Under the pieces are notes generated by a model that saw only the letters and a list, made by a program, of their open reading frames with translations, ran no database searches and was not told the DNA's origin. Shown in pieces: positions 5,622-55,725 of a DNA stretch of 64,000 nt; within the stretch, counting starts at the first letter, position 1; the number at the start of each line of letters is the position of its first letter. Position numbers and translations under genes: made by a program. Source of the stretch: Paludibacteraceae bacterium (GTDB lineage: Bacteria > Bacteroidota > Bacteroidia > Bacteroidales > Paludibacteraceae); NCBI GenBank assembly GCA_017556705.1, contig JAFYMG010000014.1, forward strand, positions 62,001 through 126,000, in the 5' to 3' direction.

Positions 5622-6651
5622 TTTTGCTTTCGAAGCGGGTGGCAATCTTCCTCAGTTGGAGATTGTCTATCACACTTCGCCACGCGACTATCAATCTGGT
5701 GACCGGGTTGTATGGCTATGCCATGCTCTGACTGCTAACTCCGATCCGCTGGATTGGTGGCCTGAAATGGTGGGCGAGAATTGCTGGGTAGACCCCGATA
5801 AGGATTTCGTCGTATGCGTCAATATCTTTGGCTCAGCCTACGGAACCACGGGACCGAGGTCAATTAAGAATGAAGAATTAAGAATTAAGAATTGCTCCGA
5901 CGAGCCAACTCAAAATTCAAAATTCAAAATTCAAAATTATCTAGATTTCCCTAAGTTTACCGTTCGCGATACAGCGCGACTTTTCACCCTGGTGCGCGAG
6001 CATTTGGGTATTCAGCGCGTGGACCTCTTGGTGGGTAGCTCCATTGGCGGCTTCCATGCCTTGGAGTGGGCGATCATGGAGGGCGATGTGATTGAGCGGG
6101 CCGCTTTTATCGCTACGGCACCTCGCGTGTCGCCATGGCTAAGTGCATGGATGGAGGTGCAGCGCATGGCTCTAGAGGCCGACCCCACATTCCGCGAAGC
6201 GCAGAGCCTCGAAGGTGGACGAAAGGGGCTGGAGACAGCTCGTGCCATTTCCCTCATCTCATACCGCAGCTTTGATGGCTACAACCTCACGCAATATGAG
6301 ACGGATGAGGATTGCCTCTTCGCTTCGCGTGCGGCTAGCTATGAGCGTTATCAAGGTGAGAAACTTGTCAAACGCGGTTTTGATGCGTATTCCTATTATT
6401 ATTTGCTATGGTGCGTCGATAGCCAGAATGTGGGTCGTGGTCGCGGTGGCGTGGCAGCAGCTTTGGCGGCCATCCAAGCGAAAACCATTGTGATAGCAAT
6501 CACTTCTGATGGCCTCTTCCCTCCATGCGAGAGCAGCGAATGGGCCAAGCATATCCCTCACGCAAAATACTACGAGATTGAGTCGCGCTTCGGACATGAT
6601 GGCTTCTTGCTGGAGACCGAGCAGATCACTCAAATCCTTAATGAATTGTAG
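5593..6651 (+). CDS. metX: Homoserine O-acetyltransferase with an in-frame repeat insertion
   Basis: 352 residues, alpha/beta hydrolase fold. The nucleophile elbow GSSIGG places the catalytic serine at Ser150, with Asp in TSDGLFP (about 305) and His in RFGHDGF (about 334) completing the triad. It acetylates homoserine for the overlapping upstream metY. The ATG at 5593 is chosen over an in-frame TTG two codons earlier. Residues about 89-118, between TTGP and DFPKFTVRD, are not family sequence: they are encoded by two 7-bp tandem arrays flanking a small GC hairpin (5855-5938). The flanking conserved blocks are intact and in frame, so the enzyme is probably active with a surface loop added. Confidence 0.92.
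   Translation: MHLHKLTTYNFAFEAGGNLPQLEIVYHTSPRDYQSGDRVVWLCHALTANSDPLDWWPEMVGENCWVDPDKDFVVCVNIFGSAYGTTGPRSIKNEELRIKNCSDEPTQNSKFKIQNYLDFPKFTVRDTARLFTLVREHLGIQRVDLLVGSSIGGFHALEWAIMEGDVIERAAFIATAPRVSPWLSAWMEVQRMALEADPTFREAQSLEGGRKGLETARAISLISYRSFDGYNLTQYETDEDCLFASRAASYERYQGEKLVKRGFDAYSYYYLLWCVDSQNVGRGRGGVAAALAAIQAKTIVIAITSDGLFPPCESSEWAKHIPHAKYYEIESRFGHDGFLLETEQITQILNEL
5855..5938 (+). repeat. Paired 7-bp arrays inside metX
   Basis: Left array: ATTAAGA ATGAAGA, then ATTAAGA twice. Then a GCTC-CGAC-GAGC hairpin. Right array: CTCAAAA followed by three TTCAAAA. Both arms contain GAATT/AATTC at 7-bp spacing, so the whole block can fold back. It is read in frame as part of metX. Confidence 0.85.
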
Positions 6652-18020: not shown

Positions 18021-18124
18021 ACTGCCAATTGTTTGCCCTTTGTTTGCCTTCTATCTGCCACCAATCCACATTGGAACCTCATTGGAACCTAATTAGAATC
18101 TGATTGGAACCTCATTGGAACTTC
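18013..18124 (+). repeat. Two consecutive 11-bp tandem arrays
   Basis: First array: TGCC recurs at 18023, 18034, 18045 and 18056, exactly 11 bp apart (consensus about ATTGTTTGCCC). Second array: five contiguous 11-mers from 18070, consensus ATTGGAACCTC, with unit three diverged (ATTAGAATCTG). No open frame crosses them. Confidence 0.9.
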
Positions 18125-18973: not shown

Positions 18974-19106
18974 ATGAAGCGAACGAAAGTTCACGCTTTT
19001 TGTATGCATATACGAAATCAAATCAACAAACAACAACTCAAATAATTAACCAGCGGAGTGTGCCGAAAATCCGACAAAGAGTAGGCAGAAATAAAATTAT
19101 AACAAA

Positions 19107-21166: not shown

Positions 21167-22506
21167 AATCGACATTCCGTATAGGTGGAGTACATCCACA
21201 TGATAATAAGCAATACTCTGTTCATCAACCTATCACCGAGTGTGCTTTGCCAACCAAGGCCATCATTCCTTTGGTACAACATATCGGTGCGCCTGCACAG
21301 GCAGTCGTAGAGAAAGGACAGAAAGTGAAAGTAGGTGAACTCATCGCGAAAGCAGGTGGCTTCGTAAGTGCGAATATTCACGCGCCTTTCAGCGGTACCA
21401 TCACCAAGATTGACACTACCATCGACGCATGGGGCATGAAAATGCCAGCCATCTTCATGGATGTGGAGGGCGACGAGTGGCTTGAGACCATCGATCGCAG
21501 CAATGATATCGTTCGCAAATTAGACTACGAACCAAAAGCCATCATCGATAAAGTGCAAGAGGCAGGTATCGTAGGTTTGGGTGGCGCATGTTTCCCAACC
21601 CACGTGAAACTGATGCCTCCTCCAGGCAAGACCGCTGAGGTGCTCATCGTGAACGGTGTAGAGTGCGAGCCATACTTGACTTGCGACCACCAATTGATGC
21701 TGGAGAAGGGCGAGGAGATTATCATCGGTATCCAACTGCTGATGCGTGCGCTCAATATCCCAAAAGCCATCATCGGTATCGAGGCTAACAAACCAGATGC
21801 TATCAAGCATATGACTGCCCTTGCAAGCAAGGTACTCGGTATCGAGGTAAAAGCCCTCAAACTCAAATACCCACAAGGTGGTGAGAAACAGCTCATCGAC
21901 GCATGTATCCGTCGCCAAGTGCCAAGCGGTGCACTGCCAATCGAGGTAGGCGCTGTGGTGGACAACGTGGCAACTATCTATGCCGTATATGAGGCAGTAC
22001 AAAAGAATAAACCACTGATTTCTCGCGTGATGACTGTAACTGGTAAGAGCGTGGCTAAACCAGGCAACTACGACGTGCGTTTTGGTACGCCATTGACCGA
22101 CGTAGTAGCATTGGCAGGCGGTGTGCCAGAGGATACTGGTAAAGTGATCGGTGGTGGTCCTATGATGGGTCGCGCGATGAGCAATATCGATATGCCAAGC
22201 AACAAGCGCGTGAGCGGTCTGCTATTCTTGCCAGAGGCAGAGAGTATGCGCCAAGAGATTACCAACTGCGTACGCTGCGGTAAGTGCGTAGGCGCTTGTC
22301 CAATGGGTCTCGAACCATGGCTCCTCAGCAAACAAGCATGGCACAGCATGTGGGACGAGATGGAGGATCACAACATCATGGACTGCATCGAGTGCGGTTG
22401 CTGCCAATTCACTTGCCCAAGTCACTTGCCATTGCTCGACTATGTACGCATGGGTAAAGCGAAAGTAGGAGGACTTATTCGCGCTCGTCAAATGGCGAAT
22501 AAGTAG
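21163..22506 (+). CDS. rnfC: Rnf complex subunit RnfC
   Basis: 447 residues. N-terminal RnfC barrel-sandwich domain (STFRIGGVHPHDNK), the NADH/FMN-binding part resembling NuoF (GGACFPTHVK, NGVECEPYLTCD), an SLBB domain, and two 4Fe-4S motifs (CVRCGKCVGACP, CIECGCCQFTCP). It is the NAD(H)-side peripheral subunit. Its start overlaps rnfB and its stop TAG is the start of a 7-bp AGTTTAA array leading into rnfD. Confidence 0.95.
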   Translation: MKSTFRIGGVHPHDNKQYSVHQPITECALPTKAIIPLVQHIGAPAQAVVEKGQKVKVGELIAKAGGFVSANIHAPFSGTITKIDTTIDAWGMKMPAIFMDVEGDEWLETIDRSNDIVRKLDYEPKAIIDKVQEAGIVGLGGACFPTHVKLMPPPGKTAEVLIVNGVECEPYLTCDHQLMLEKGEEIIIGIQLLMRALNIPKAIIGIEANKPDAIKHMTALASKVLGIEVKALKLKYPQGGEKQLIDACIRRQVPSGALPIEVGAVVDNVATIYAVYEAVQKNKPLISRVMTVTGKSVAKPGNYDVRFGTPLTDVVALAGGVPEDTGKVIGGGPMMGRAMSNIDMPSNKRVSGLLFLPEAESMRQEITNCVRCGKCVGACPMGLEPWLLSKQAWHSMWDEMEDHNIMDCIECGCCQFTCPSHLPLLDYVRMGKAKVGGLIRARQMANK

Positions 22507-22539
22507 TTTAAAGTATAGAGTTTAAAGTTTAAAGGCTAG
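22505..22539 (+). repeat. 7-bp array at the rnfC stop codon
   Basis: AGTTTAA AGTATAG, then AGTTTAA twice, then AGGCTAG: five 7-mers, the first overlapping the rnfC stop TAG and the last ending just before the rnfD leader AATAATG. Confidence 0.85.
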
Positions 22540-22543
22540 AATA

Positions 22544-23573: not shown

Positions 23574-24311
23574 ATGGCAAAATTACAAAGTTCATTTAAG
23601 AATATGTTACTATCGCTGACGCTCATCGCGTTGGTGGCTGCGGCTGCTTTGGCTGGTGTGTACACGTTAACGGAGGATCCTATCTCCAATGCAAGTGCGA
23701 AGAAACAAAAAGAAGCTAAAGAGAAAGTGCTTCCAAAGGTGGAGGGCATGACTTTTGCAGATGCAGAAAAAGTGTATATAGTGAAGAAATCCGATACAGT
23801 TAGTACTATCATTCTGCACAAGGCGTATGTAGGCGAAGAGTGGATCGGTACGGCCGTAGAGGCAAGCACCGAGGGTAACCAAAACATGCCTTTCGGTGGT
23901 ACTTTCCGCCTGATGGTAGGTTTCAATAATGTAGGCGATGTGGTTCGCTATGTGGTATTAGAGCAAGCTGAGACCCCAGGTCTGGGTGCACTGATGAGCA
24001 CATGGTTCTGCAATCCTGATAAACCAAAGTCCAACATCCTTGGCAAGAATCCCGCTACTACCAATTTCAGCGTAAGCAAAGATGGTGGCGATGTAGATGC
24101 TATCACCGCTTCTACTATTACATCTCGTGCATTCTTAGAGGTTGTGGTGAGAGCCTATAATGCAATTGCTCAACAACCTATGCTGATTGAGAAAGTAGAG
24201 GTGGAGCCAGCAGAAGTATTTGTTTGTCCAAATGGCAATGATCCATTGGAGTGTGCTGGCAGAGGATGTGCTGAGCAATATTGTCTAAAACAGAAAGGAG
24301 GCCAACAATGA
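23574..24311 (+). CDS. rnfG: Rnf complex subunit RnfG
   Basis: 245 residues. One N-terminal membrane helix, then a periplasmic FMN-binding domain with the covalent-flavin motif ASTITSRA (Thr near residue 180). It ends in a Cys-rich tail (FVCPNGNDPLECAGRGCAEQYC). The start at 23574 has a GGAGGG Shine-Dalgarno 8 nt upstream, a rarity in Bacteroidetes, and it is preferred over an in-frame upstream codon inside rnfD. It overlaps rnfE by ATGA. Confidence 0.94.
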   Translation: MAKLQSSFKNMLLSLTLIALVAAAALAGVYTLTEDPISNASAKKQKEAKEKVLPKVEGMTFADAEKVYIVKKSDTVSTIILHKAYVGEEWIGTAVEASTEGNQNMPFGGTFRLMVGFNNVGDVVRYVVLEQAETPGLGALMSTWFCNPDKPKSNILGKNPATTNFSVSKDGGDVDAITASTITSRAFLEVVVRAYNAIAQQPMLIEKVEVEPAEVFVCPNGNDPLECAGRGCAEQYCLKQKGGQQ

Positions 24312-24898
24312 AAAATAAAGCATTAAACACCGTTCTTAACGGTATCTTGCGCGAGAACCCAGTATTCGCTCTCGTGCTCGGTATGTGTCCTACCTTGGCG
24401 ACTACTACTTCTGCTATCAATGGTATGTCCATGGGACTCGCTACCACTTTCGTGCTTATCTGCTCGAACGTGGTGATTTCACTCTTGAAGAATTTGATTC
24501 CTGATAAAGTGCGTATCCCTGCGTTTATCGTGGTGATTGCTACTTTTGTGACCATGGTACAACTCTTGATACAAGCATATGTACCAGCTGTTTATGACAA
24601 GTTGGGTTTATTTATTCCGCTGATTGTGGTGAACTGTATTGTACTCGGTCGTGCAGAGGCCTTTGCCGCTAAGAACACCGTTGGCTTGTCTGCATTGGAC
24701 GGTCTGGGTATGGGTCTTGGCTTCTCATTGGCATTGACTTTGATTGGTGCAGTGCGCGAGTTGCTCGGTACGGGTAGTTTGTTTGGCATGAACCTCTACA
24801 GCGAGACCTATGGTATGTTGATTTTCGTGCTTGCTCCTGGTGCGTTCATCGTATTGGGCTACTTGATGGCATTGGTACAAAAACTTTTGAAGAAATAA
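24308..24898 (+). CDS. rnfE: Rnf complex subunit RnfE
   Basis: 196 residues with six membrane helices. Family sequences NPVFALVLGMCPTLATTT and LPxxxxNCIVLGRAEAFAAKN are present, including the conserved Cys residues that hold an intramembrane Fe-S centre with RnfA. It overlaps rnfG; the next gene, rnfA, is 161 nt away beyond a 143-bp modular hairpin element. Confidence 0.95.
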   Translation: MKNKALNTVLNGILRENPVFALVLGMCPTLATTTSAINGMSMGLATTFVLICSNVVISLLKNLIPDKVRIPAFIVVIATFVTMVQLLIQAYVPAVYDKLGLFIPLIVVNCIVLGRAEAFAAKNTVGLSALDGLGMGLGFSLALTLIGAVRELLGTGSLFGMNLYSETYGMLIFVLAPGAFIVLGYLMALVQKLLKK

Positions 24899-24901
24899 TT
24901 A

Positions 24902-25044
24902 TTAGATCGGCTTCGCCTGTAGATGGTAGATCGGGCTAAAGCCCTTGTAGTTCGCCACTTCGTGGCTGTAGAAAATAGACTACAACGAGCGCAGCGAGTG
25001 AACTACAGCGAGCATCGCGAGCGATCTACAACGAAGTGATCTAA
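24902..25044. repeat. Modular multi-hairpin element (TGTAGATC type) between rnfE and rnfA
   Basis: It is bounded by TTAGATC (24902) and GATCTAA (25038). Small stem-loops (GGCTTCGCC, GGGCTAAAGCCC, GCCACTTCGTGGC, then CGAGCGCAGCGAG, CGAGCATCGCGAG) alternate with TGTAGATC-like spacers in the left half and GATCTACA-like spacers in the right half. The whole can fold as one branched cruciform or RNA. Confidence 0.9.
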
Positions 25045-25059
25045 AAAAATAAAAGAATT

Positions 25060-25653
25060 ATGGTATATTTCTTGATATTTATCTCTGCGATATTCGTGAA
25101 TAATATCGTATTGAGCCAGTTCTTGGGTATTTGTCCATTCTTGGGCGTAAGTAAGAAAATCAATACTGCGCTGGGTATGGGTGCAGCCGTGTTGTTTGTC
25201 ATGACATTGGCAACATTGGTGACCTACCTCTTGCAACAACTCTTGAATACATGGAATTTGGGCTTTTTGCAAACCATCTTGTTTATCTTGGTGATCGCAG
25301 CCCTCGTGCAGATGATTGAGATTATTCTCAAGAAGATCTCTCCATCGTTGTACCAAGCATTAGGTGTGTTCTTGCCATTGATCACAACGAACTGCTGTTT
25401 GTTGGGTGTGGCTATCATGGTAGCTAGCGGCACATATAAGTTGCCTATGGGCGCAGAGCCAGGCTTGTTGACAGGTATGTTGTTTGCTATCGCAACAGCT
25501 ATTGGTTTTGCATTGGCATTGGTATTGTTCGCAGGTATGCGCGAGCAATTGGCATTAGCTAAAGTGCCTAAGGCACTGCAAGGTACCCCTATTGCCCTCC
25601 TGACCGCCGGCCTCTTGGCTATGGCATTCATGGGCTTTAGCGGAGTAGTATAA
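25060..25653 (+). CDS. rnfA: Rnf complex subunit RnfA
   Basis: 197 residues, six membrane helices, with VNNIVLSQFLGICPFLGVS and LPLITTNCCLLGVAI typical of RnfA/NqrE, including the Cys residues of the intramembrane Fe-S centre. Paired with RnfE in the membrane. It depends on the same operon promoter as rseC unless the intervening repeat supplies one; no TAnnTTTG box was found directly upstream. Confidence 0.95.
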   Translation: MVYFLIFISAIFVNNIVLSQFLGICPFLGVSKKINTALGMGAAVLFVMTLATLVTYLLQQLLNTWNLGFLQTILFILVIAALVQMIEIILKKISPSLYQALGVFLPLITTNCCLLGVAIMVASGTYKLPMGAEPGLLTGMLFAIATAIGFALALVLFAGMREQLALAKVPKALQGTPIALLTAGLLAMAFMGFSGVV

Positions 25654-28435: not shown

Positions 28436-30163
28436 ATGATTCATTTTAACATTGAGGTAGCTTCGGAGAAGCACATTCCTTATGTAGCAGAGATTCTGCA
28501 AACAATAGAAGAAGCTGCTAAAGACCGCGGTACAGGTATCGCAAAGCGTAATCCAGAATATGTTGCGCAGAAGATGCGTGAGGGCAAAGCAGTTATCGCT
28601 ATGGATGGCGATAAGTTTGCTGGTTTTAGTTATGTAGAGTGCTGGGACCATGGACACTTTGTAGCGAACTCTGGTCTTATCGTTAAGCCAGAATACCGTC
28701 ACATGGGACTCGCTAAGCAAATCAAAACCCGCATCGTAGAACTCTCACAAGAGTTGTTTCCTAATGCAAAAATCTTCTCCCTCACTACCGGCGCAGCCGT
28801 AATGAAGATGAATACCGAATTGGGCTTCAAACCAGTCACCTTCCAAGATCTAACGAATGATCCTAAGTTTTGGAAGGGTTGCGAAAGCTGTGTAAACTAC
28901 GATGTGCTTTGCCGCAATAATTTTGAGCGTTGCCTTTGCACTGGTCTATTGTTTGAGCCACCTCATAAGAAGCGTGTGGTAGTAGCTTATAGTGGTGGTT
29001 TGGATACCTCCTACACCGTGATGTATCTCGCCAAAGAGCTTGGCTACGAAGTACACGCCGTATGTGCTAATACGGGCGGTTTCAGTGCGGAGCAACTTCG
29101 CCAAAACGAGGAGAACGCCTATAAACTTGGTGCTGTACGCTACGAGACCCTTGATGTACAACAAGAATACTACGACAAGAGTATCCGCTATATGGTATAT
29201 GGTAATGTGCTCCGCAATGGCACTTACCCTATCTCTGTATCTTCTGAACGTATCTTCCAGGCCCTTGCTATTGCTCGCTACGCTCGCGAAGTAGAAGCAG
29301 ACGCTATTGCACACGGCTCTACAGGTGCTGGTAATGATCAAGTACGCTTTGACATGACCTTCCTCGTAGCTGCTCCTGGCGTAGAGATTATCACTCTCAC
29401 TCGCGACAAGGCTCTCACCCGTCAAGAGGAGATTGATTATCTCAACGAGCACGGTTTTGCAGCAGACTTCGAGAAACTCAAATACTCTTACAACGTAGGC
29501 CTCTGGGGCACCAGTATCTGCGGTGGCGAGATCCTCGATAGCAAACAAGGCTTGCCAGAGAGCGCATACCTCAAGCAAGTGACCAAAGACGGCGAGGAGG
29601 ATATCGTACTCGAGTTCAAGAATGGCGAATTGGTTGGCGTCAACGGCACAACCTACGAGGACGGTGTGAAGGCTATCCAAGCAGTGGAAGAGATTGCTGC
29701 ACCTTATGGCATTGGTCGTGATATGCACGTGGGCGATACCATCATCGGTATCAAAGGTCGTGTGGGCTTTGAGGCTGCTGCGCCTATGCTCATTATCTCT
29801 GCGCATAAGTTCCTCGAGAAGTTCACTCTCTCTAAATGGCAACAATACTGGAAAGACCAAGTGGCGAACTGGTACGGTATGTTCCTCCACGAGAGCCAAT
29901 ACAAGGAGCCTGTCATGCGTGATATCGAGGCGATGCTCGAATCTAGCCAACGCAATGTGAACGGCAAAGTGACCATGCACTTGCGTCCATATATGTTTGA
30001 GACCGTAGGCGTAGATTCCAAAGACGACCTCGTAAAAACCAAACTCGGCGAGTACGGCGAGATGCAAAAGGGTTGGACCTCAGAGGAAGCTAAGGGCTTC
30101 ATCAAAGTCCTCTCAACCCCTCTCCGCGTATATTACGCTAACCACGACGACGAAACATTATGA
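28436..30163 (+). CDS. argG: GNAT acyltransferase fused to argininosuccinate synthase
   Basis: 575 residues in one uninterrupted frame. Residues 1-160 form a GNAT domain (IVKPEYRHMGLAKQIKTRI is the acetyl-CoA loop) ending in a Cys-rich tail (GCESCVNYDVLC, CLCTGLLF). From about residue 178 a full-length ArgG follows, with the ATP-pyrophosphatase loop AYSGGLDTS near 184-192 and the ArgG motifs GNDQVRFD and GRVGFEAAAP. ArgG joins citrulline and aspartate. In Bacteroides, as I recall, the GNAT and argG are adjacent separate genes; here they are one polypeptide. The GNAT partner could be the glutamate N-acyltransferase missing from the pathway (inference). argC overlaps its stop by 4 nt. Confidence 0.93.
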   Translation: MIHFNIEVASEKHIPYVAEILQTIEEAAKDRGTGIAKRNPEYVAQKMREGKAVIAMDGDKFAGFSYVECWDHGHFVANSGLIVKPEYRHMGLAKQIKTRIVELSQELFPNAKIFSLTTGAAVMKMNTELGFKPVTFQDLTNDPKFWKGCESCVNYDVLCRNNFERCLCTGLLFEPPHKKRVVVAYSGGLDTSYTVMYLAKELGYEVHAVCANTGGFSAEQLRQNEENAYKLGAVRYETLDVQQEYYDKSIRYMVYGNVLRNGTYPISVSSERIFQALAIARYAREVEADAIAHGSTGAGNDQVRFDMTFLVAAPGVEIITLTRDKALTRQEEIDYLNEHGFAADFEKLKYSYNVGLWGTSICGGEILDSKQGLPESAYLKQVTKDGEEDIVLEFKNGELVGVNGTTYEDGVKAIQAVEEIAAPYGIGRDMHVGDTIIGIKGRVGFEAAAPMLIISAHKFLEKFTLSKWQQYWKDQVANWYGMFLHESQYKEPVMRDIEAMLESSQRNVNGKVTMHLRPYMFETVGVDSKDDLVKTKLGEYGEMQKGWTSEEAKGFIKVLSTPLRVYYANHDDETL

Positions 30164-31092
30164 TTCGAGTAGGTATAATAGGCGCAGCGGGCTATACAGC
30201 AGGCGAACTCATCCGTCTCTTGGTCAATCATCCAGAGGTGGAGATCACCTTTGCGCACTCCACTAGCAATGCAGGGCAACCATTTCATGCTGTACATACT
30301 GGTCTGATTGGCGACACCGAGCAATGCTTCTCTGATACATACGACCTCCACGCCATCGACGTGCTCTTCCTTTGCTCTGGTCACGGCAAGAGTACTGCTT
30401 TCTGGGCAGAGAACGAGTGTCCTGACACCTTGAAGATCATCGACCTAGCGCAAGACTATCGCGACGAACACGATGGTTATGTATATGGTTTGCCAGAACT
30501 CCAACGTAAGAAAATTTGTGGATGTACCAAACTCGCCAACCCAGGCTGCTTTGCTACCGCTATCCAACTGGCATTGCTGCCAATGATTGGTCGTACCACA
30601 GAGGCTAGTGTGACCGCGATTACAGGTTCTACGGGTGCTGGACAGAAGCCAACGGCTACCACCCACTTCTCTTGGCGCAACGATAATATGTCTGTTTATA
30701 AGGCCTTTACCCACCAGCATTTGTTGGAGATCGGCAGAAACACAGGCATGAAAGTGGAGTTCATCCCTATGCGTGGTGATTTCTCTCGTGGTATCATTGC
30801 GGCGGTAACAATGCCATTCGACGGCACTGCAGAACAGGCATACGAGCTCTATCGCCAATACTACAAGGATGCGGCTTTTACCCATGTCATCAACCGCGAA
30901 GTCAACCTCAAGGATGTGGTAAATACCAACAAGTGCGTGCTGCAAACACAAGTGCATGAGGGTAGGTTGCTTGTCACTTCTGTGATAGACAACCTGCTGA
31001 AAGGTGCCAGCGGCCAAGCATTGCAAAACATGAACCTGATGTTCGGATTGGATGAAAAAATGGGTTTGAACCTAAAAGCACTAGCTTTCTAA
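30160..31092 (+). CDS. argC: N-acyl-gamma-glutamyl-phosphate reductase
   Basis: 310 residues. NADP-binding GIIGAAGYTAGELIRLL at the N-terminus, catalytic Cys in LANPGCFATAIQLAL (near residue 129), and the FIPMRGDFSRGI segment with the C-terminal DNLLKGASGQALQNMNLM all match ArgC. It reduces the acyl-glutamyl phosphate made by ArgB to the semialdehyde. The start overlaps argG (ATGA). A 154-bp modular repeat separates it from argD. Confidence 0.95.
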   Translation: MIRVGIIGAAGYTAGELIRLLVNHPEVEITFAHSTSNAGQPFHAVHTGLIGDTEQCFSDTYDLHAIDVLFLCSGHGKSTAFWAENECPDTLKIIDLAQDYRDEHDGYVYGLPELQRKKICGCTKLANPGCFATAIQLALLPMIGRTTEASVTAITGSTGAGQKPTATTHFSWRNDNMSVYKAFTHQHLLEIGRNTGMKVEFIPMRGDFSRGIIAAVTMPFDGTAEQAYELYRQYYKDAAFTHVINREVNLKDVVNTNKCVLQTQVHEGRLLVTSVIDNLLKGASGQALQNMNLMFGLDEKMGLNLKALAF

Positions 31093-31096
31093 AAAA

Positions 31097-31250
31097 GATC
31101 GCCTTTGGCTGTTAGACCATTTCATTGTTAGATCACTTTGTTGCTAGAACGCCCTACGGGCTGATAGACTCAAGCAATCTAACAGGCGGAGCCGGTCCAA
31201 CAGAGAGCAAAGCGAACGGTCTAACATCTAACAGCGACATAGTCGCGATC
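31097..31250. repeat. Modular multi-hairpin element (TGTTAGAYC type) between argC and argD
   Basis: Ends are GATCGC (31097) and GCGATC (31245-31250), inverted. Left arm: stem-loops (GCCTTTGGC, ATTTCAT, ACTTTGT, GCCCTACGGGC) each followed by TGTTAGACC-like 9-mers. Right arm: GGTCYAACA-like 9-mers separated by GGCGGAGCC, GAGAGCAAAGC and GCGACATAGTCGC. The left and right spacers are reverse complements. Four bases downstream comes the argD start region. Confidence 0.92.
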
Positions 31251-34731: not shown

Positions 34732-36876
34732 ATGAAAAAGATATTTTTATATATAGCTATTACTTTAGGCTTGTTAAGTTGCAACCATAAAGATTCATTA
34801 TGGCAAGAGGTTGTAGAAGACTTAGATGAGCGCGTAGAGACTCTTGAGATGCTATGTGCAGAGATGAACACCAACATCACATCACTCCAAACGATTGTGG
34901 ATGTACTACAATCCAATGACTTTATTACAAGCATTGTAGAAATCAAAAAAGACGGCAAAGTAGTGGGTTATACTATCACTTTCGGTAAACACGACCCAAT
35001 CACCATTTATCATGGACAAGACGGTAAGGATGGACAAAATGGTACAAATGGTAAAGACGGTCAAGACGGAGCAGATGGAAAAGATGGTCAAAATGGTGCT
35101 GACGGCAAAGATGGCATAACTCCTGTGATTGGCGTAGCACAAGACACCGACGGTGTGTATTATTGGACTTTGAATGGCGAATGGCTATTGGATGACAATG
35201 GCAACAAACTCCCCGTCTCGGGCAAGGATGGTAAAGATGGCGTAGATGGCGCAAACGGAAAAGATGGTCAAGACGGTACCGATGGCAAAGACGGTATAAC
35301 TCCTCTATTAAAAATAGAAAATGGCTATTGGTATATATCCTATGACAATGGCGCTACTTGGACTGAATCGGGTAAAGCTACAGGCGATAACGGTCAAAAC
35401 GGTCAGAATGGAACAGACGGTAAGGACGGACAAGATGGAACTAATGGACAAGACGGCGTAACACCACTATTAAAAATAGACAATGGTTATTGGTATATAT
35501 CCTATGACAATGGTGCCACTTGGGCGCAATTGGGCAAAGCTACAGGCGAAGACGGTAAAGACGGAGCGAACGGCACCAATGGTACTGATGGCAAAGATGG
35601 ACAAGATGGTGCAGATGGAAGCAATGGTCAAGACGGAATAACCCCACAATTGAAAATAGAAAATGGTTATTGGTACGTATCATACGATAACGGTACTACA
35701 TGGACGCAATTTGGTAAGGCGACTGGAGCAGACGGACAAGATGGTCAAAATGGTACTGACGGCAAGGATGGACAAGATGGAAAGGACGGTGTTACTCCTC
35801 AATTGAAGATAGAGGAGGGTTATTGGTTTATCTCTTATGACAATGGTACTACTTGGACGCAACTCGGCAAAGCCACAGGCGAAGACGGCAAAGATGGAGT
35901 TGATGGCGAGGACGGTAAAGATGGACAAAATGGTGCCGATGGAAAGGATGGACAAGATGGCGATTCTATGTTCCAATCTGTGACACAAGATGAAAACTAT
36001 GTTTATTTCACACTCGCTGATGGTACAGTAATTAAGATTGCCAAAGCTTCTGAAGAAGAACAACCCAATTCGGAGTTTATGTTTATCGTTACATATCATG
36101 CGAATGGTGGCGAGGGTACAATGAAACCTGATACATTCTATTACGGAGTTTCTAAGCAATTGTCAGAGATTACATATACCAAAGATTCTCATACATTTAC
36201 AAGTTGGAATACCAAAGCAGATGGGAAAGGTATTTCCTATTATACTAAACAAGAGTTGATGATCAGTAAAAATATTACACTATATGCTCAATGGGAAGAA
36301 TTGACAGAGCATGTAGATTTGGGATTATCTGTCAAATGGGCTACTTGTAATCTAGGTGCAGAACAACCATGGGAATATGGTGATTATTATGCATGGGGAG
36401 AAGTAAATACTAAAAGTAGTTACACTCAAGATAATTATAAATATGGGAAAGAATCTAAAATGACTAAATACTGCGGTTCATACACGTTCGGTTATCAAAT
36501 GTTTACAGATGATTTGAAAACTTTAGAAAAAGAAGATGATGCTGCTTATCAAAACAAAGGGGATGCATGGCGTATTCCTACATGTGCAGAAATCCAAGAG
36601 TTGATAAGTAGTTGTACATGGACATATACAACACTTAATGGCAGAAATGGATATAAAGTAACATCGAATAAAACAGGATTTACAGACAGGAGCATTTTCT
36701 TACCATGTGAACGCACGTCTAATACAGTAGGTTATTATTGGTCTAGTGAGAATCAAATGGGAAATAATAATGCAGATTGCGCAAGTTGCTTGCATTTTAA
36801 TAATAGTACTATTGAAATTACTTGGAAGGTTCAATATAGATACCATGGGTATAGTATTCGCCCTGTTTGTCCATAA
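34732..36876 (+). CDS. Collagen-like surface lipoprotein with InlB-type and FISUMP domains
   Basis: 714 residues. Lipobox LLSC (lipidated Cys near 17); a helical segment with heptads (about 25-60, DUF4988-like); then Gly-X-Y collagen-like stretches (GQDGKDGQNG type) alternating four times with a 30-residue beta module of the kind LKIENGYWYISYDNG; a Listeria-Bacteroides InlB B-repeat (VTYHANGGEGTMKPD, YAQW, about 455-520); and a C-terminal FISUMP-like domain (VDLGLSVKWATCNLG, WRIPTCAEIQELI, YYWSS, ending SIRPVCP). Probably an outer-membrane stalked adhesin. The GXY triplets are almost all G-(Q/K/A/N)-(D/N). Cell-surface location is inferred from the lipid anchor. Confidence 0.9.
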   Translation: MKKIFLYIAITLGLLSCNHKDSLWQEVVEDLDERVETLEMLCAEMNTNITSLQTIVDVLQSNDFITSIVEIKKDGKVVGYTITFGKHDPITIYHGQDGKDGQNGTNGKDGQDGADGKDGQNGADGKDGITPVIGVAQDTDGVYYWTLNGEWLLDDNGNKLPVSGKDGKDGVDGANGKDGQDGTDGKDGITPLLKIENGYWYISYDNGATWTESGKATGDNGQNGQNGTDGKDGQDGTNGQDGVTPLLKIDNGYWYISYDNGATWAQLGKATGEDGKDGANGTNGTDGKDGQDGADGSNGQDGITPQLKIENGYWYVSYDNGTTWTQFGKATGADGQDGQNGTDGKDGQDGKDGVTPQLKIEEGYWFISYDNGTTWTQLGKATGEDGKDGVDGEDGKDGQNGADGKDGQDGDSMFQSVTQDENYVYFTLADGTVIKIAKASEEEQPNSEFMFIVTYHANGGEGTMKPDTFYYGVSKQLSEITYTKDSHTFTSWNTKADGKGISYYTKQELMISKNITLYAQWEELTEHVDLGLSVKWATCNLGAEQPWEYGDYYAWGEVNTKSSYTQDNYKYGKESKMTKYCGSYTFGYQMFTDDLKTLEKEDDAAYQNKGDAWRIPTCAEIQELISSCTWTYTTLNGRNGYKVTSNKTGFTDRSIFLPCERTSNTVGYYWSSENQMGNNNADCASCLHFNNSTIEITWKVQYRYHGYSIRPVCP

Positions 36877-37836: not shown

Positions 37837-38613
37837 ATGATACAAGTAATCAAAATAGGCGGTGGCGTGCTGGAGAACGAAGCGCAAAGAGATGCGTTTC
37901 TGCGTCAGTTTGCTGCTATAGAAGGTCCCAAAGTATTGGTACATGGCGGTGGCAGATTAGCTACAACTATGGCAGAACGTTTGGGCGTAGAGACACAGAT
38001 GATTGATGGTCGCCGTGTGACCGATAAAGAGACCCTCGATATCGTCACCATGGTGTACGGCGGATTAGTCAATAAACAAGTGGTGGCACAATTGCAAACC
38101 ATGGGTGTGAATGCCATTGGATTGACGGGCGTAGATGGCGGATGGATGAAATCGGTGAAGCGTCCTATTAAAAACGGTATCGACTATGGCTATGTCGGCG
38201 ATGTGGTAGATGTGAACGGGCAGCATCTTCGTACACTACTAGATAACGGTTTGACACCTGTGATTGCTCCAATCACCTATAGCGCCGAAGGAGCATTACT
38301 CAATACGAATGCCGATACTGTAGCATCGCAAACAGCTATCGCTTTAGCACCCGATGTACAACTGACTTTCTGCTTTGAGAAAGCAGGTGTATTGAGCAAC
38401 CCAGATGACGAATCATCGCTCATCGCTCGTATCACCCCCGAATCATACACCCAACTCAAAGCAGATGGTATTGTATCGGGCGGTATGATACCTAAGATAG
38501 ATAATGCTTTTGCAGCTATTGAGCACGGCGTACAATCCGTACGCATCACCCACGCAAGCAACTTGCAAGGGGGAACAATAATCGAAGAAAGATGGAAGAC
38601 CGCCTTTGGCTGA
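37837..38613 (+). CDS. argB: N-acylglutamate kinase
   Basis: 258 residues. Amino-acid kinase fold: VIKIGGGVLEN, VHGGGRLAT, and the C-terminal GGMIPKIDNAFAAIEHGVQSVRITHA with the ATP-site Lys. It phosphorylates N-acetyl- or N-succinylglutamate. The last codons (KTAFG and stop) lie inside the first hairpin of the following modular repeat, so the element supplies the C-terminus. Confidence 0.94.
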   Translation: MIQVIKIGGGVLENEAQRDAFLRQFAAIEGPKVLVHGGGRLATTMAERLGVETQMIDGRRVTDKETLDIVTMVYGGLVNKQVVAQLQTMGVNAIGLTGVDGGWMKSVKRPIKNGIDYGYVGDVVDVNGQHLRTLLDNGLTPVIAPITYSAEGALLNTNADTVASQTAIALAPDVQLTFCFEKAGVLSNPDDESSLIARITPESYTQLKADGIVSGGMIPKIDNAFAAIEHGVQSVRITHASNLQGGTIIEERWKTAFG

Positions 38614-38764
38614 GAGACCACTTCGTTGAGAGACCACTTCGTTGTTAGACCGCACCAAAGGTGCTGAGAGACTCTAGAATCTAACAGGCGAAGCCGATCT
38701 AACAGAGAGTGTAAGCGAGCGGTCTAACAGAGTAACGATCTAACAGCGACACAGTCGCGATCTA
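38598..38764. repeat. Modular multi-hairpin element (TGTTAGAYC type) between argB and argE
   Basis: Left arm: GACC, GCCTTTGGC, TGAGAGACC, ACTTCGT, TGAGAGACC, ACTTCGT, TGTTAGACC, GCACCAAAGGTGC. Right arm: ATCTAACA, GGCGAAGCC, GATCTAACA, a 16-nt module, GGTCTAACA, GAGTAAC, GATCTAACA, GCGACACAGTCGC, GATC. It has the same plan as the argC-argD element but different hairpins, and overlaps the argB stop codon. Confidence 0.92.
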
Positions 38765-38771
38765 TAGATAT

Positions 38772-39800
38772 ATGGACAACAAATACATCACACTACTGCA
38801 ACGCATGATTCAAACTCCCTCTATTTCAGGGCAGGAGGATGCGGTATGCACGTTGCTGGAGCAATGGATGACGGCAGAGGGCATTGCCGTTCGTCGCGTA
38901 GGAAATAACCTATGGGCGGAATGTGGAGAAGGGCAAGAAACAGTGCTACTCAACGCACATGTCGACACAGTCAAACCAGCGGTATCTTACACCCGTGACC
39001 CTTTCTCGGGAGAGTGTGATGGCAAAACAATATACGGATTAGGAGCTAATGATTGCGGTGGTAGTGTGATAGCCATGTTGGCGACTTTCCTAGATATCTA
39101 TCGTCACCCAATAGCTGGTAAACGCATTGTGCTTACCCTCACGGCCGAAGAAGAGAATAGCGGCAGACATGGCATCGAAATGCTGTTGCCACACATCGGA
39201 AAGATTGATTATGCCATCGTGGGCGAACCTACCTCGTTGGAGATGGCAGTAGCCGAACGCGGACTAATGGTGCTAGACGGCGAAGCCAAAGGAAAAGCTG
39301 GACATGCTGCACGCGAAGAAGGTGTGAATGCACTGTATATTGCGCTAGATGATATACAAACATTGCGCAACTACGAATTTGAGAAGGTGTCGCCATTCTT
39401 GGGGACAGTAAAGATGACCACTACAATGATCGAGGCAGGTACGCAGCATAATGTAGTGCCTGATACATGTCAATTCGTCGTAGATATTCGCTCCAATGGA
39501 TTGTACTCTAATGAGGAGATACATGCACTTTTGCAGCCAATGGTGCAATCAACACTGACCCCACGCTCTACGCGACTCAATGCCACATCTACGCCAATTG
39601 AGACTGCTATCGTGCAACGAGCAAAAGCATTGGGCATCCCACTCTATGGCTCGCCTACACTGAGCAATATGGCATTGTTGAGTTGTCCTAAGGTTAAGTT
39701 TGGCCCTGGCGACTCCGCCCGCTCACACACTGCAGACGAATATATTCATATCCACGAAATAGAACAAGCAATTAAATTACTGAAAATACTGATAGAATAA
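38772..39800 (+). CDS. argE: M20 N-acylornithine/acylcitrulline deacylase
   Basis: 342 residues. M20 metallopeptidase metal ligands appear in NAHVDTVKP (His, Asp), GANDCGGSV (Asp), EEENSGRHG (Glu-Glu catalytic pair) and a C-terminal Ser-rich SARSHTADEYIHI (His). Shorter dimerisation domain than DapE. Between argB and argH and with an acyl-ornithine carbamoyltransferase in the cluster, its likely substrate is the N-acylcitrulline. Specificity for acetyl or succinyl cannot be read. Confidence 0.88.
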   Translation: MDNKYITLLQRMIQTPSISGQEDAVCTLLEQWMTAEGIAVRRVGNNLWAECGEGQETVLLNAHVDTVKPAVSYTRDPFSGECDGKTIYGLGANDCGGSVIAMLATFLDIYRHPIAGKRIVLTLTAEEENSGRHGIEMLLPHIGKIDYAIVGEPTSLEMAVAERGLMVLDGEAKGKAGHAAREEGVNALYIALDDIQTLRNYEFEKVSPFLGTVKMTTTMIEAGTQHNVVPDTCQFVVDIRSNGLYSNEEIHALLQPMVQSTLTPRSTRLNATSTPIETAIVQRAKALGIPLYGSPTLSNMALLSCPKVKFGPGDSARSHTADEYIHIHEIEQAIKLLKILIE

Positions 39801-44688: not shown

Positions 44689-44743
44689 ATAGTGTGGTTA
44701 TTGTATGGTTATTGTGTGGTAATAGTGTGGTGCTGGTAGGGAA
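44689..44743 (+). repeat. 11-bp tandem array after the GT2 gene
   Basis: ATAGTGTGGTT, ATTGTATGGTT, ATTGTGTGGTA, ATAGTGTGGTG and a weaker CTGGTAGGGAA: strict 11-bp spacing, starting 5 nt after the stop codon. Confidence 0.85.
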
Positions 44744-49399: not shown

Positions 49400-50842
49400 C
49401 TATTTATCGGAGTTGATTAGAGCAATAAGTTGATCTACAGCGTCCTCTTGTGGTATGTTTTTCAATACACATTCTTTACCGCGATAAAGACTGACTTTGC
49501 CGCGACCAGCTCCCACATAACCGTAATCGGCATCTGCCATCTCTCCTGGACCATTCACAATACAACCCATGATACCAATCTTAAGTCCTTGTAGGTGCGA
49601 GGTGGCTGCTTTGACTTGAGCGATCGTTTGTTCGAGATCAAACAAAGTGCGTCCGCAACCAGGACATGATATATACTCCGTCTTATACATACGCACGCGC
49701 GCAGCTTGGAGAATATCTTTGCTGAGGCGGAGCAAGTCTTCCGCTGCGAAGTGATCGTTGTTGAGTATCAGTTCTGTGCAATGGTGGTCCCACAATAGAC
49801 GTCCACATTCCGCAGCGGCGTGTAGTTGGAATAGTGCCCAATCACTATCCGAATTAGAGTAATGCACGGTATGCTCCTCTACACGGATATGTGTGTCGTT
49901 CGCATATCGAATGCTTTGCTCATCAGCAAAATAATCTATGAGTGCCTGAGCCACAGGTAGTTCTTTCTCGGGTGCTTCGCTAAGGCTAACGCGAATCGTG
50001 TCGCCAATGCCGTCAGCCAATAGAGCACCAATGCCTACTGCTGATTTGATGCGACCGTCTTCTCCTTCACCCGCTTCGGTAACACCTAAATGCAGAGGGA
50101 AGGCCATCTCCTCTTCCGCCATTTGCCATACGAGAAGGCGAACAGTAGTGACCATGACTAGGGTATTGCTAGCCTTGATAGACAAAACAATATCTTTGAA
50201 ATCTTCAGCAACTGCCACGCGGAGAAATTCCATACAACTCTCTACCATGCCTTCAGGTGTGTCGCCATAACGCGACATGATACGATCGCTCAGGCTGCCG
50301 TGATTGACACCAATACGTAGAGCAGTCTTGTGCTCTTTACAGATGTTAAGCAGTTGGATGAAGCGATTGCGAAGGCGTTGTAATTCAGATGCATATTCTT
50401 CGTCGGTATAATCAATTTGCTTGAATTTACGTGCAGGATCGATATAGTTACCAGGATTGATTCGCACTTTTTCTACCACCTTAGCTGCGGCATCCGCCAC
50501 GTCGGATTGGAAATGTACATCTGCCACGAGAGGGGTATTAGATCGCTTCGCTGTAGATCGGGCAGAGCCCTGTAGTTCGGCTTCGCCTGTAGATTGCTCC
50601 GCTTGAAGCAAGTGGCGTATCTGCGAGAGAGATTCTACTTCGCGTATGCCTTGGGTAGTGAAACGCAGAAGTTCTGTACCAGCGGCAATGCAGCGTTCGG
50701 CTTGTGCGACACTACCCTCGATATCATTGGTCGAAGTGTTCGCCATCGTTTGGATGCGAACGGGGAATTCGCTGCCTATGGATAGACCGCCAACTTGTGT
50801 GGTAGTCGTTTGTCGGCGATGGTATGTGAGTTGGATGTTCAT
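49400..50842 (-). CDS. ispG: 4-hydroxy-3-methylbut-2-enyl diphosphate synthase with an in-frame repeat
   Basis: 480 residues from MNIQLTYHRRQ; an earlier in-frame ATG is too near the -7 box. N-terminal TIM barrel (RIQTMANTSTND, NTPLVADVHF, VRINPGNY, GVTEAGEGEDGRIKSA), a shortened middle region, and the C-terminal 4Fe-4S domain (CPGCGRTLFDLE, GIMGCIVNGPGEMADADYGYVG). It makes HMBPP in the MEP path. Most Bacteroidetes IspG proteins carry a long inserted A* domain (about 600 residues total as I recall); here it is reduced. Residues about 79-99 (QSTGEAELQGSARSTAKRS) are encoded by a modular hairpin element in frame. Confidence 0.92.
   Translation of the reverse strand: MNIQLTYHRRQTTTTQVGGLSIGSEFPVRIQTMANTSTNDIEGSVAQAERCIAAGTELLRFTTQGIREVESLSQIRHLLQAEQSTGEAELQGSARSTAKRSNTPLVADVHFQSDVADAAAKVVEKVRINPGNYIDPARKFKQIDYTDEEYASELQRLRNRFIQLLNICKEHKTALRIGVNHGSLSDRIMSRYGDTPEGMVESCMEFLRVAVAEDFKDIVLSIKASNTLVMVTTVRLLVWQMAEEEMAFPLHLGVTEAGEGEDGRIKSAVGIGALLADGIGDTIRVSLSEAPEKELPVAQALIDYFADEQSIRYANDTHIRVEEHTVHYSNSDSDWALFQLHAAAECGRLLWDHHCTELILNNDHFAAEDLLRLSKDILQAARVRMYKTEYISCPGCGRTLFDLEQTIAQVKAATSHLQGLKIGIMGCIVNGPGEMADADYGYVGAGRGKVSLYRGKECVLKNIPQEDAVDQLIALINSDK
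50538..50612 (-). repeat. Modular hairpin element (TGTAGATC type) inside ispG
   Basis: Plus strand: TTAGATC, GCTTCGC, TGTAGATC, GGGCAGAGCCC, TGTAGTTC, GGCTTCGCC, TGTAGATT, then a GCTCCGCTTGAAGC module. It matches the left arm of the rnfE-rnfA element unit for unit, lacks the right arm, and is read in frame in ispG. Confidence 0.9.
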
Positions 50843-50860
50843 AAAAACCCGAATTTGGTG

Positions 50861-50891
50861 CAAAGTTACGTATTTTTTTTTGATTAAGCAA
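50861..50891 (-). promoter_or_regulatory. Promoter for the ispG-licD operon
   Basis: Minus-strand TTG (50889-50891) and TAACTTTG (50861-50868), 20-nt spacing. It is the only such promoter found for the six minus-strand genes down to licD. Confidence 0.85.
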
Positions 50892-55632: not shown

Positions 55633-55668
55633 GTTCATGAGACTGATTGTTTAAAAAATGTAGCGGTA

Positions 55669-55725
55669 CTAGAGGGGCTAGGTATACTAGGAGTGCTATA
55701 GCACTAGTATCACTAGATCTTCTAG
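55669..55725. repeat. 9-bp array of CTAG tetramers
   Basis: CTAG (or CTAT once) starts at 55669, 55678, 55687, 55696, 55704, 55713 and 55722, spacings 9, 9, 9, 8, 9, 9. The array lies between the amylase terminator and the glyS stop, overlapping nothing. Confidence 0.85.

Follow-up and report, generated by a model that had tools for sequence, protein, structure and literature searches.

Modular arrays of small hairpins in fixed linkers in Paludibacteraceae genomes: candidate mosaic palindromic repeats of DNA mini-hairpins

What kind of element is built of small hairpins of free sequence set in a linker that hardly changes? An element of this type lies between argC and argD in a 64-kb stretch of DNA from a gut-type Bacteroidales bacterium of the Paludibacteraceae (the whole stretch analysed, here called the window). 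A sequence-only reading had proposed that two further elements, between argB and argE and between rnfE and rnfA, follow the same plan. All three are present as described, and the linkers of both arms and the GATCGC/GCGATC termini of the argC-argD array were confirmed. A related array lies inside ispG. There are two linker dialects: A is TGTTAGAYC and B is TGTAGATC. The right arm of an array carries the reverse complement. The arrays and the hairpins of the argC-argD array are as follows.

31097 to 31250, no strand assigned: argC-argD array, dialect A, double-armed, between argC (30160-31092) and argD, defined from the sequence and linker matches
31101-31109, 31119-31125, 31135-31141 and 31151-31161: its left-arm hairpins, GCCTTTGGC, ATTTCAT, ACTTTGT and GCCCTACGGGC
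31185-31193, 31203-31217 and 31234-31246: its right-arm hairpins, GGCGGAGCC, GAGAGCAAAGCGAAC and GCGACATAGTCGC
38597 to 38764, no strand assigned: argB-argE array, dialect A, double-armed, between argB (37837-38613) and argE (38772-39800)
24903 to 25045, no strand assigned: rnfE-rnfA array, dialect B, double-armed, between rnfE (24281-24898) and rnfA (25060-25653)
50536 to 50595, minus strand: ispG (gcpE) array, dialect B, single-armed, inside the gene at 49400-50863, in frame just before LVADVHF

The left linkers of the argC-argD array are TGTTAGACC (at 31110) and TGTTAGATC (at 31126), followed by the decayed copies TGCTAGAAC and TGATAGAC. The right linkers are AATCTAACA, GGTCCAACA and GGTCTAACA-TCTAACA. 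The first module of the argB-argE array is the end of the argB reading frame, comprising the last codons and the stop (window 38590-38613); in the sister species G158, argB ends earlier at its own stop and has no array. The ispG product was identified as GcpE by Pfam. At E 1e-20, argC was detected in just 6 of 101 genus genomes, which makes the distribution of the arginine genes in the genus patchy. The window also encodes a large repeat protein (34732-36876) with DGK/DGQ-type units in 162-180 bp repeats, which looks collagen-like by eye.

The linker could have been frequent by chance. Within the window, TGTTAGAYC with one mismatch allowed occurs 25 times against 24.3 expected, which is weak evidence alone, and the exact copies are confined to two elements. 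We therefore give the counts for the whole source genome (G000; 2.0 Mb, 98.7% complete) against reversed-pattern controls. Exact TGTTAGAYC occurs 57 times versus 23 in the control, TAGAYC-GC-N-GC-TGTTAGA 26 times versus 0, and TAGATC-N-TGTAGA 48 times versus 2. These controls rule out a chance origin, which had been named as one outcome that would overturn the sequence-only reading. About 34 strong arrays were found in the genome, well beyond the three window elements. A DNA uptake sequence was also rejected, since such sequences have hundreds to thousands of copies per genome.

The two dialects share a core, AGAYC-hairpin-TG, and differ in the word that follows, TTAGA in A and TAGA in B. A third wording, AAAGAC around the same AGACC-hairpin-TG core, occurs at locus L108 of a sister species. 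Arrays seldom combine dialects (48 are A, 34 are B and 2 are mixed), and one-armed forms are common alongside double-armed ones. One of the two mixed arrays, at locus L056 (about 1990-2035), joins a dialect B array to a perfect palindrome that resembles a terminator, AAAAAAGGAGCG TCA CGCTCCTTTTTT, and has dialect A linkers as its ends.

The hairpins are 7 to about 17 nt long, with stems of 2-6 bp, mostly 2-3 bp. Both outer Watson-Crick pairs are present in 267 of 324 units, whereas permutation of the 3' ends gave a mean of 85.5 and a maximum of 111 in 2000 permutations. At the few loci from Flavobacteriales and Saprospirales, the figure was 37 of 46 against 20.3 permuted. The stems thus covary strongly, and the proposal of fixed spacers with variable hairpins holds. 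Neighbouring hairpins behave as independent draws, with 1 identical pair in 111 versus 1.7 expected. Because adjacent hairpins are no more similar than random ones, the arrays do not grow by tandem duplication, which we ruled out on this comparison.

The loops follow a rule that depends on the strand. Read on the TCTA(A)CA-hairpin-GRTCT strand, the 206 triloops comprise 136 GNA, 44 ANA, 12 TNT, 2 TNC (the complement of GNA) and 12 others, and most four-base loops are GNNA. In longer hairpins, a tandem TC/TC internal loop is frequent; on the GNA strand it reads GA/GA (24 versus 0 the opposite way). Work of Hirao and Yoshizawa on d(GCGAAGC) established that a DNA mini-hairpin is extraordinarily stable and nuclease-resistant when its loop is GNA or GNNA and its stem has two or more G-C pairs, with a Tm near 78 C for GCGAAGC (as described in PMC4686876). 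The commonest array modules are exactly GCGAAGC, GCGCAGC and GCGTAGC, and GNNA tetraloops occur too. The arrays thus carry GNA/GNNA loops on two or more stem pairs, on one strand, with stems that are mostly, not solely, G-C; the ANA loops (44 of 206) and the A-T stems fall outside the strict stability rule. The published mini-hairpins are known as an in vitro structure. A nearest-neighbour energy model leaves the 2-bp module unfolded both as DNA and as RNA, but it contains no special term for GNA stability. The DNA reading therefore draws on the loop rule and published work and makes no use of these energies. No genomic repeat family based on the GNA/GNNA rule turned up in the open-access literature; a description in a subscription journal is possible.

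Where do the arrays sit? We merged the arrays in stretches fetched around matches in several species, with genes taken from simple open-reading-frame calls. The 83 arrays lie in co-directional gaps (43), divergent gaps (11), convergent gaps (7), inside genes (19) or at stretch edges (3), so operon gaps are not the only places where the plan occurs. Seven in-gene arrays of the source genome are in frame. The host genes are conserved and encode IspG/GcpE, a branched-chain aminotransferase (IlvE), glycogen synthase, a HAD hydrolase, a TonB receptor, a GH2 enzyme and a FemAB/GNAT-like protein. The IspG insert lies opposite a gap in a homologue of known structure, and the IlvE insert takes the place of a short turn. 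The coding strand is the GNA strand in 16 of 18 single in-gene arrays, largely because of stop codons; the bias in co-directional gaps (18:9) is not significant. We therefore make no claim about the replication strand.

Comparison of syntenic junctions between relatives, which had been suggested as a check, indicated gain and loss. The argC-argD and argB-argE junctions carry an array in the source genome and none in G158. The rnfE-rnfA array is present in the source genome, G053 and G158, the latter two having one module more, and is absent in G057 and G038. At the same junction, G060 and G061 have a 7-mer array instead, and G041 and G048 have AAAGAC-type arrays. Another array site, L069, is empty in G057. 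Four empty/filled sites showed no consistent target duplication. Protein loops behave similarly. Dialect B arrays occupy the IspG loop in the source genome and G038, whereas G024 has repeats of the 11-mer GTTTAGAGTGG there and G053 another word; in the other species compared the loop is plain. The glycogen synthase loop holds dialect A in the source genome and dialect B in G053 and G038. Particular junctions and protein loops are therefore re-occupied by different arrays.

Hairpin-free arrays of short words also occur at gene junctions of the window (22483-22540, 44692-44731, 55640-55720, 18069-18121 and 5862-5938). Their words are the 7-mers AGTTTAA, AATTAAG and TCAAAAT and the 11-mers GTGTGGTTATT and CATTGGAACCT, and there is an inverted CTAGAGGGG array. 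Some of these junctions have different word arrays in sister species.

Orthologous arrays differ by the gain, loss or exchange of entire modules. L070 and L297 differ by 28 nt, the pairs L054/L318 and L073/L338 have swapped hairpins and retained linkers, and one rnf hairpin of G053 shows a paired change from GC..GC to GT..AC. When hairpins were shuffled among arrays, real array pairs were not more similar than shuffled ones, except for two pairs, one of which has members just 1.3 kb apart. This test argues against a decaying single transposon. The arrays form a real modular family with fixed linkers and variable hairpins. Long hairpins are seldom common to different arrays of one genome, which gives little support to module copying within a genome. 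The donors may therefore be other genomes, or the stems may be written anew.

Orthologous arrays that can be aligned at 85% or more are about 96% identical over 751 positions; because these pairs were selected for similarity, they tell us no more than that some arrays have hardly changed or were shared recently. Third codon positions at the same loci are about 0.59-0.77 identical depending on distance, and 0.62 far away. In IlvE, a tract of about 240 bp that surrounds the array (L071, 2062-2301) has a third-position identity of about 0.8-0.9 between the source genome and G053, against about 0.4 outside it. It is possible that this tract reflects short-tract transfer or gene conversion. At other loci, the short-tract signal in third positions is not clear.

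The arrays are patchily distributed. Among 90 genomes of the same genus, pattern counts reached 71 (G023), 31 (G053) and 27 (G057), and many were zero; 59 other families of the order were at control level. Most of the named records with the element pattern are Paludibacteraceae or Bacteroidales metagenome-assembled genomes. The strict pattern, with the same grammar in context, also occurs in some Kordia, Saprospiraceae, Crocinitomix and Aureispira genomes. It was found in 0 of 394 other Bacteroidota genomes in an even sample, so a broad distribution across the phylum was rejected. Transport on phages or plasmids was likewise set aside, as the strict patterns had 0 matches in viral contigs and phage and plasmid searches with one array each returned no match.

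We suggest, with a probability of about 0.42, that the arrays are BIME/RPE-like mosaic palindromic repeats of DNA mini-hairpins that act at the DNA level and turn over by module. In this scenario, each module would be a mini-hairpin, with a 2-6 bp stem and a GNA/GNNA loop on one strand, set within a fixed linker. In a single-stranded state, such as during replication, the mini-hairpins may fold and then stall or prime synthesis. Template switching guided by linker microhomology may allow the insertion, deletion or replacement of whole modules. The arrays could spread and persist as nearly neutral repeats where the host sequence tolerates them, and a cellular role would not be needed. We counted in favor of this reading the genome-wide controls, the stem covariation, the one-strand GNA rule, the dialect purity, the independence of the hairpins, the shuffle test, the empty and filled sites, the module indels and swaps, the in-frame loop arrays and the IlvE tract. 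Counted against it were the 2-bp modules left unfolded by the nearest-neighbour model, the ANA loops and the A-T stems. The rarity of shared long hairpins also weighs against it, because the donors of new modules are not visible. The high array identity relative to third positions would fit purifying selection as well, and no writer enzyme for the arrays was found.

The likeness to known repeats is partial. Like REP/BIME sequences, the arrays are short palindromic units in mosaic arrays of alternating orientation, mostly intergenic, and the double-armed arrays have the palindromic mosaic with alternating orientation and linker motifs of a BIME. However, their units are much smaller, they have in-frame copies in genes, and the palindrome is free and the linker fixed, whereas a REP/RAYT family has a conserved palindrome of 20-40 bp. 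Rickettsia palindromic elements (RPE) are palindromic repeats that are tolerated in frame in protein genes, at loops, and the arrays share this insertion at tolerated protein loops. In RPE families a sequence of about 100-150 bp is conserved, but here just the linker and the loop rule are.

Intergenic direct repeats of a heptamer (TAACTGA) have been described in Beggiatoaceae, Cyanobacteria and Bacteroidetes (MacGregor 2015, PMC4679880). They are also short-word arrays, and they may be missing at the same junction in close relatives (PMC4679880). However, they are a plain tandem word, whereas the arrays alternate words with covarying mini-hairpins and invert between arms, and so do not belong to that class; plain 7-mer and 11-mer arrays do occur at array sites in sister species. 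In the 64-kb window, only tRNA and DUF805b matched Rfam at the gathering score, and no array did, in line with the earlier statement that no known family has this grammar. The DUF805b match, a cis-regulatory RNA above the gathering score, is at 19053-19087. We found no description of this linker/mini-hairpin kind of repeat in the open-access literature; an account in a subscription journal is possible.

Several other explanations were weighed. A DNA-writing process, either an enzyme or a replication pathway, might make arrays in which linker and loop rule are fixed and stems are free, and might rewrite particular junctions and protein loops with other words in other species; we consider this rather unlikely.

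It is unlikely that the arrays are RNA-level elements, that is, mRNA spacers that stabilize, insulate or terminate transcripts and are kept by selection on structure. About half of the arrays lie between co-directional genes, the stems covary, and the alignable orthologous arrays are strongly conserved. The suggested RNA folding check came out positive for two of the three window arrays, which beat shuffles (z of -2.5 and -6.0), but the argB-argE array was not clearly above them (z of -1.6). In addition, the same operon junctions lack arrays in sister species, and the modules mostly have 2-3 bp stems, the 2-bp module having no RNA fold. With arrays in coding sequences and divergent gaps, and a loop rule known from DNA mini-hairpins, the branched RNA in operon mRNA that was first proposed finds no support as a general explanation.

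It is improbable that the arrays belong to the REP/BIME type and that a RAYT-like Y1 (HUH) transposase, working in trans or lost in the meantime, moved them in single-stranded form. The likeness lies in the hairpins, the GTAG-containing dialect B linker, the inverted pairs and the intergenic placement (PMC3733652), and weak matches to Y1 were seen in 29 of 101 genus genomes. However, a Y1 search of the source genome gave no match, array-rich genomes mostly lack Y1, and array counts are no different in genomes with and without Y1 (Mann-Whitney p 0.27). None of the sequence flanking the 12 best Y1 genes contained an array. Y1/RAYT and the arrays are thus not associated.

Equally improbable is functional DNA under sequence constraint, with the linkers or folded hairpins bound, for instance, by a nucleoid or recombination protein. 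The fixed linkers, the strand-specific loop rule and the near identity of alignable orthologous arrays would fit such binding. However, arrays are gained and lost between close species, other words stand at the same sites, many same-genus genomes have no arrays, and the conservation figure comes from pairs selected for similarity. Diverged copies of a MITE are very improbable: the inverted arms, dispersed copies and empty sites recall one dispersed sequence with terminal inverted repeats and target duplications, but the shuffle test contradicts an element copied whole and largely refutes this origin, single-armed forms are common, and target duplication is not consistent.

Mosaic repeats of mini-hairpins would, as far as we know, be the first family of genomic repeats founded on the rule for stable DNA mini-hairpins. 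If instead a DNA-writing process is at work, the inherited entity would be a sequence-structure grammar and not a sequence. The combination of fixed linkers, independent hairpins and re-occupied sites is hard to fit into current ideas on bacterial repeats, and the arrays offer a natural experiment in how bacteria gain intergenic spacers and loops in essential enzymes.
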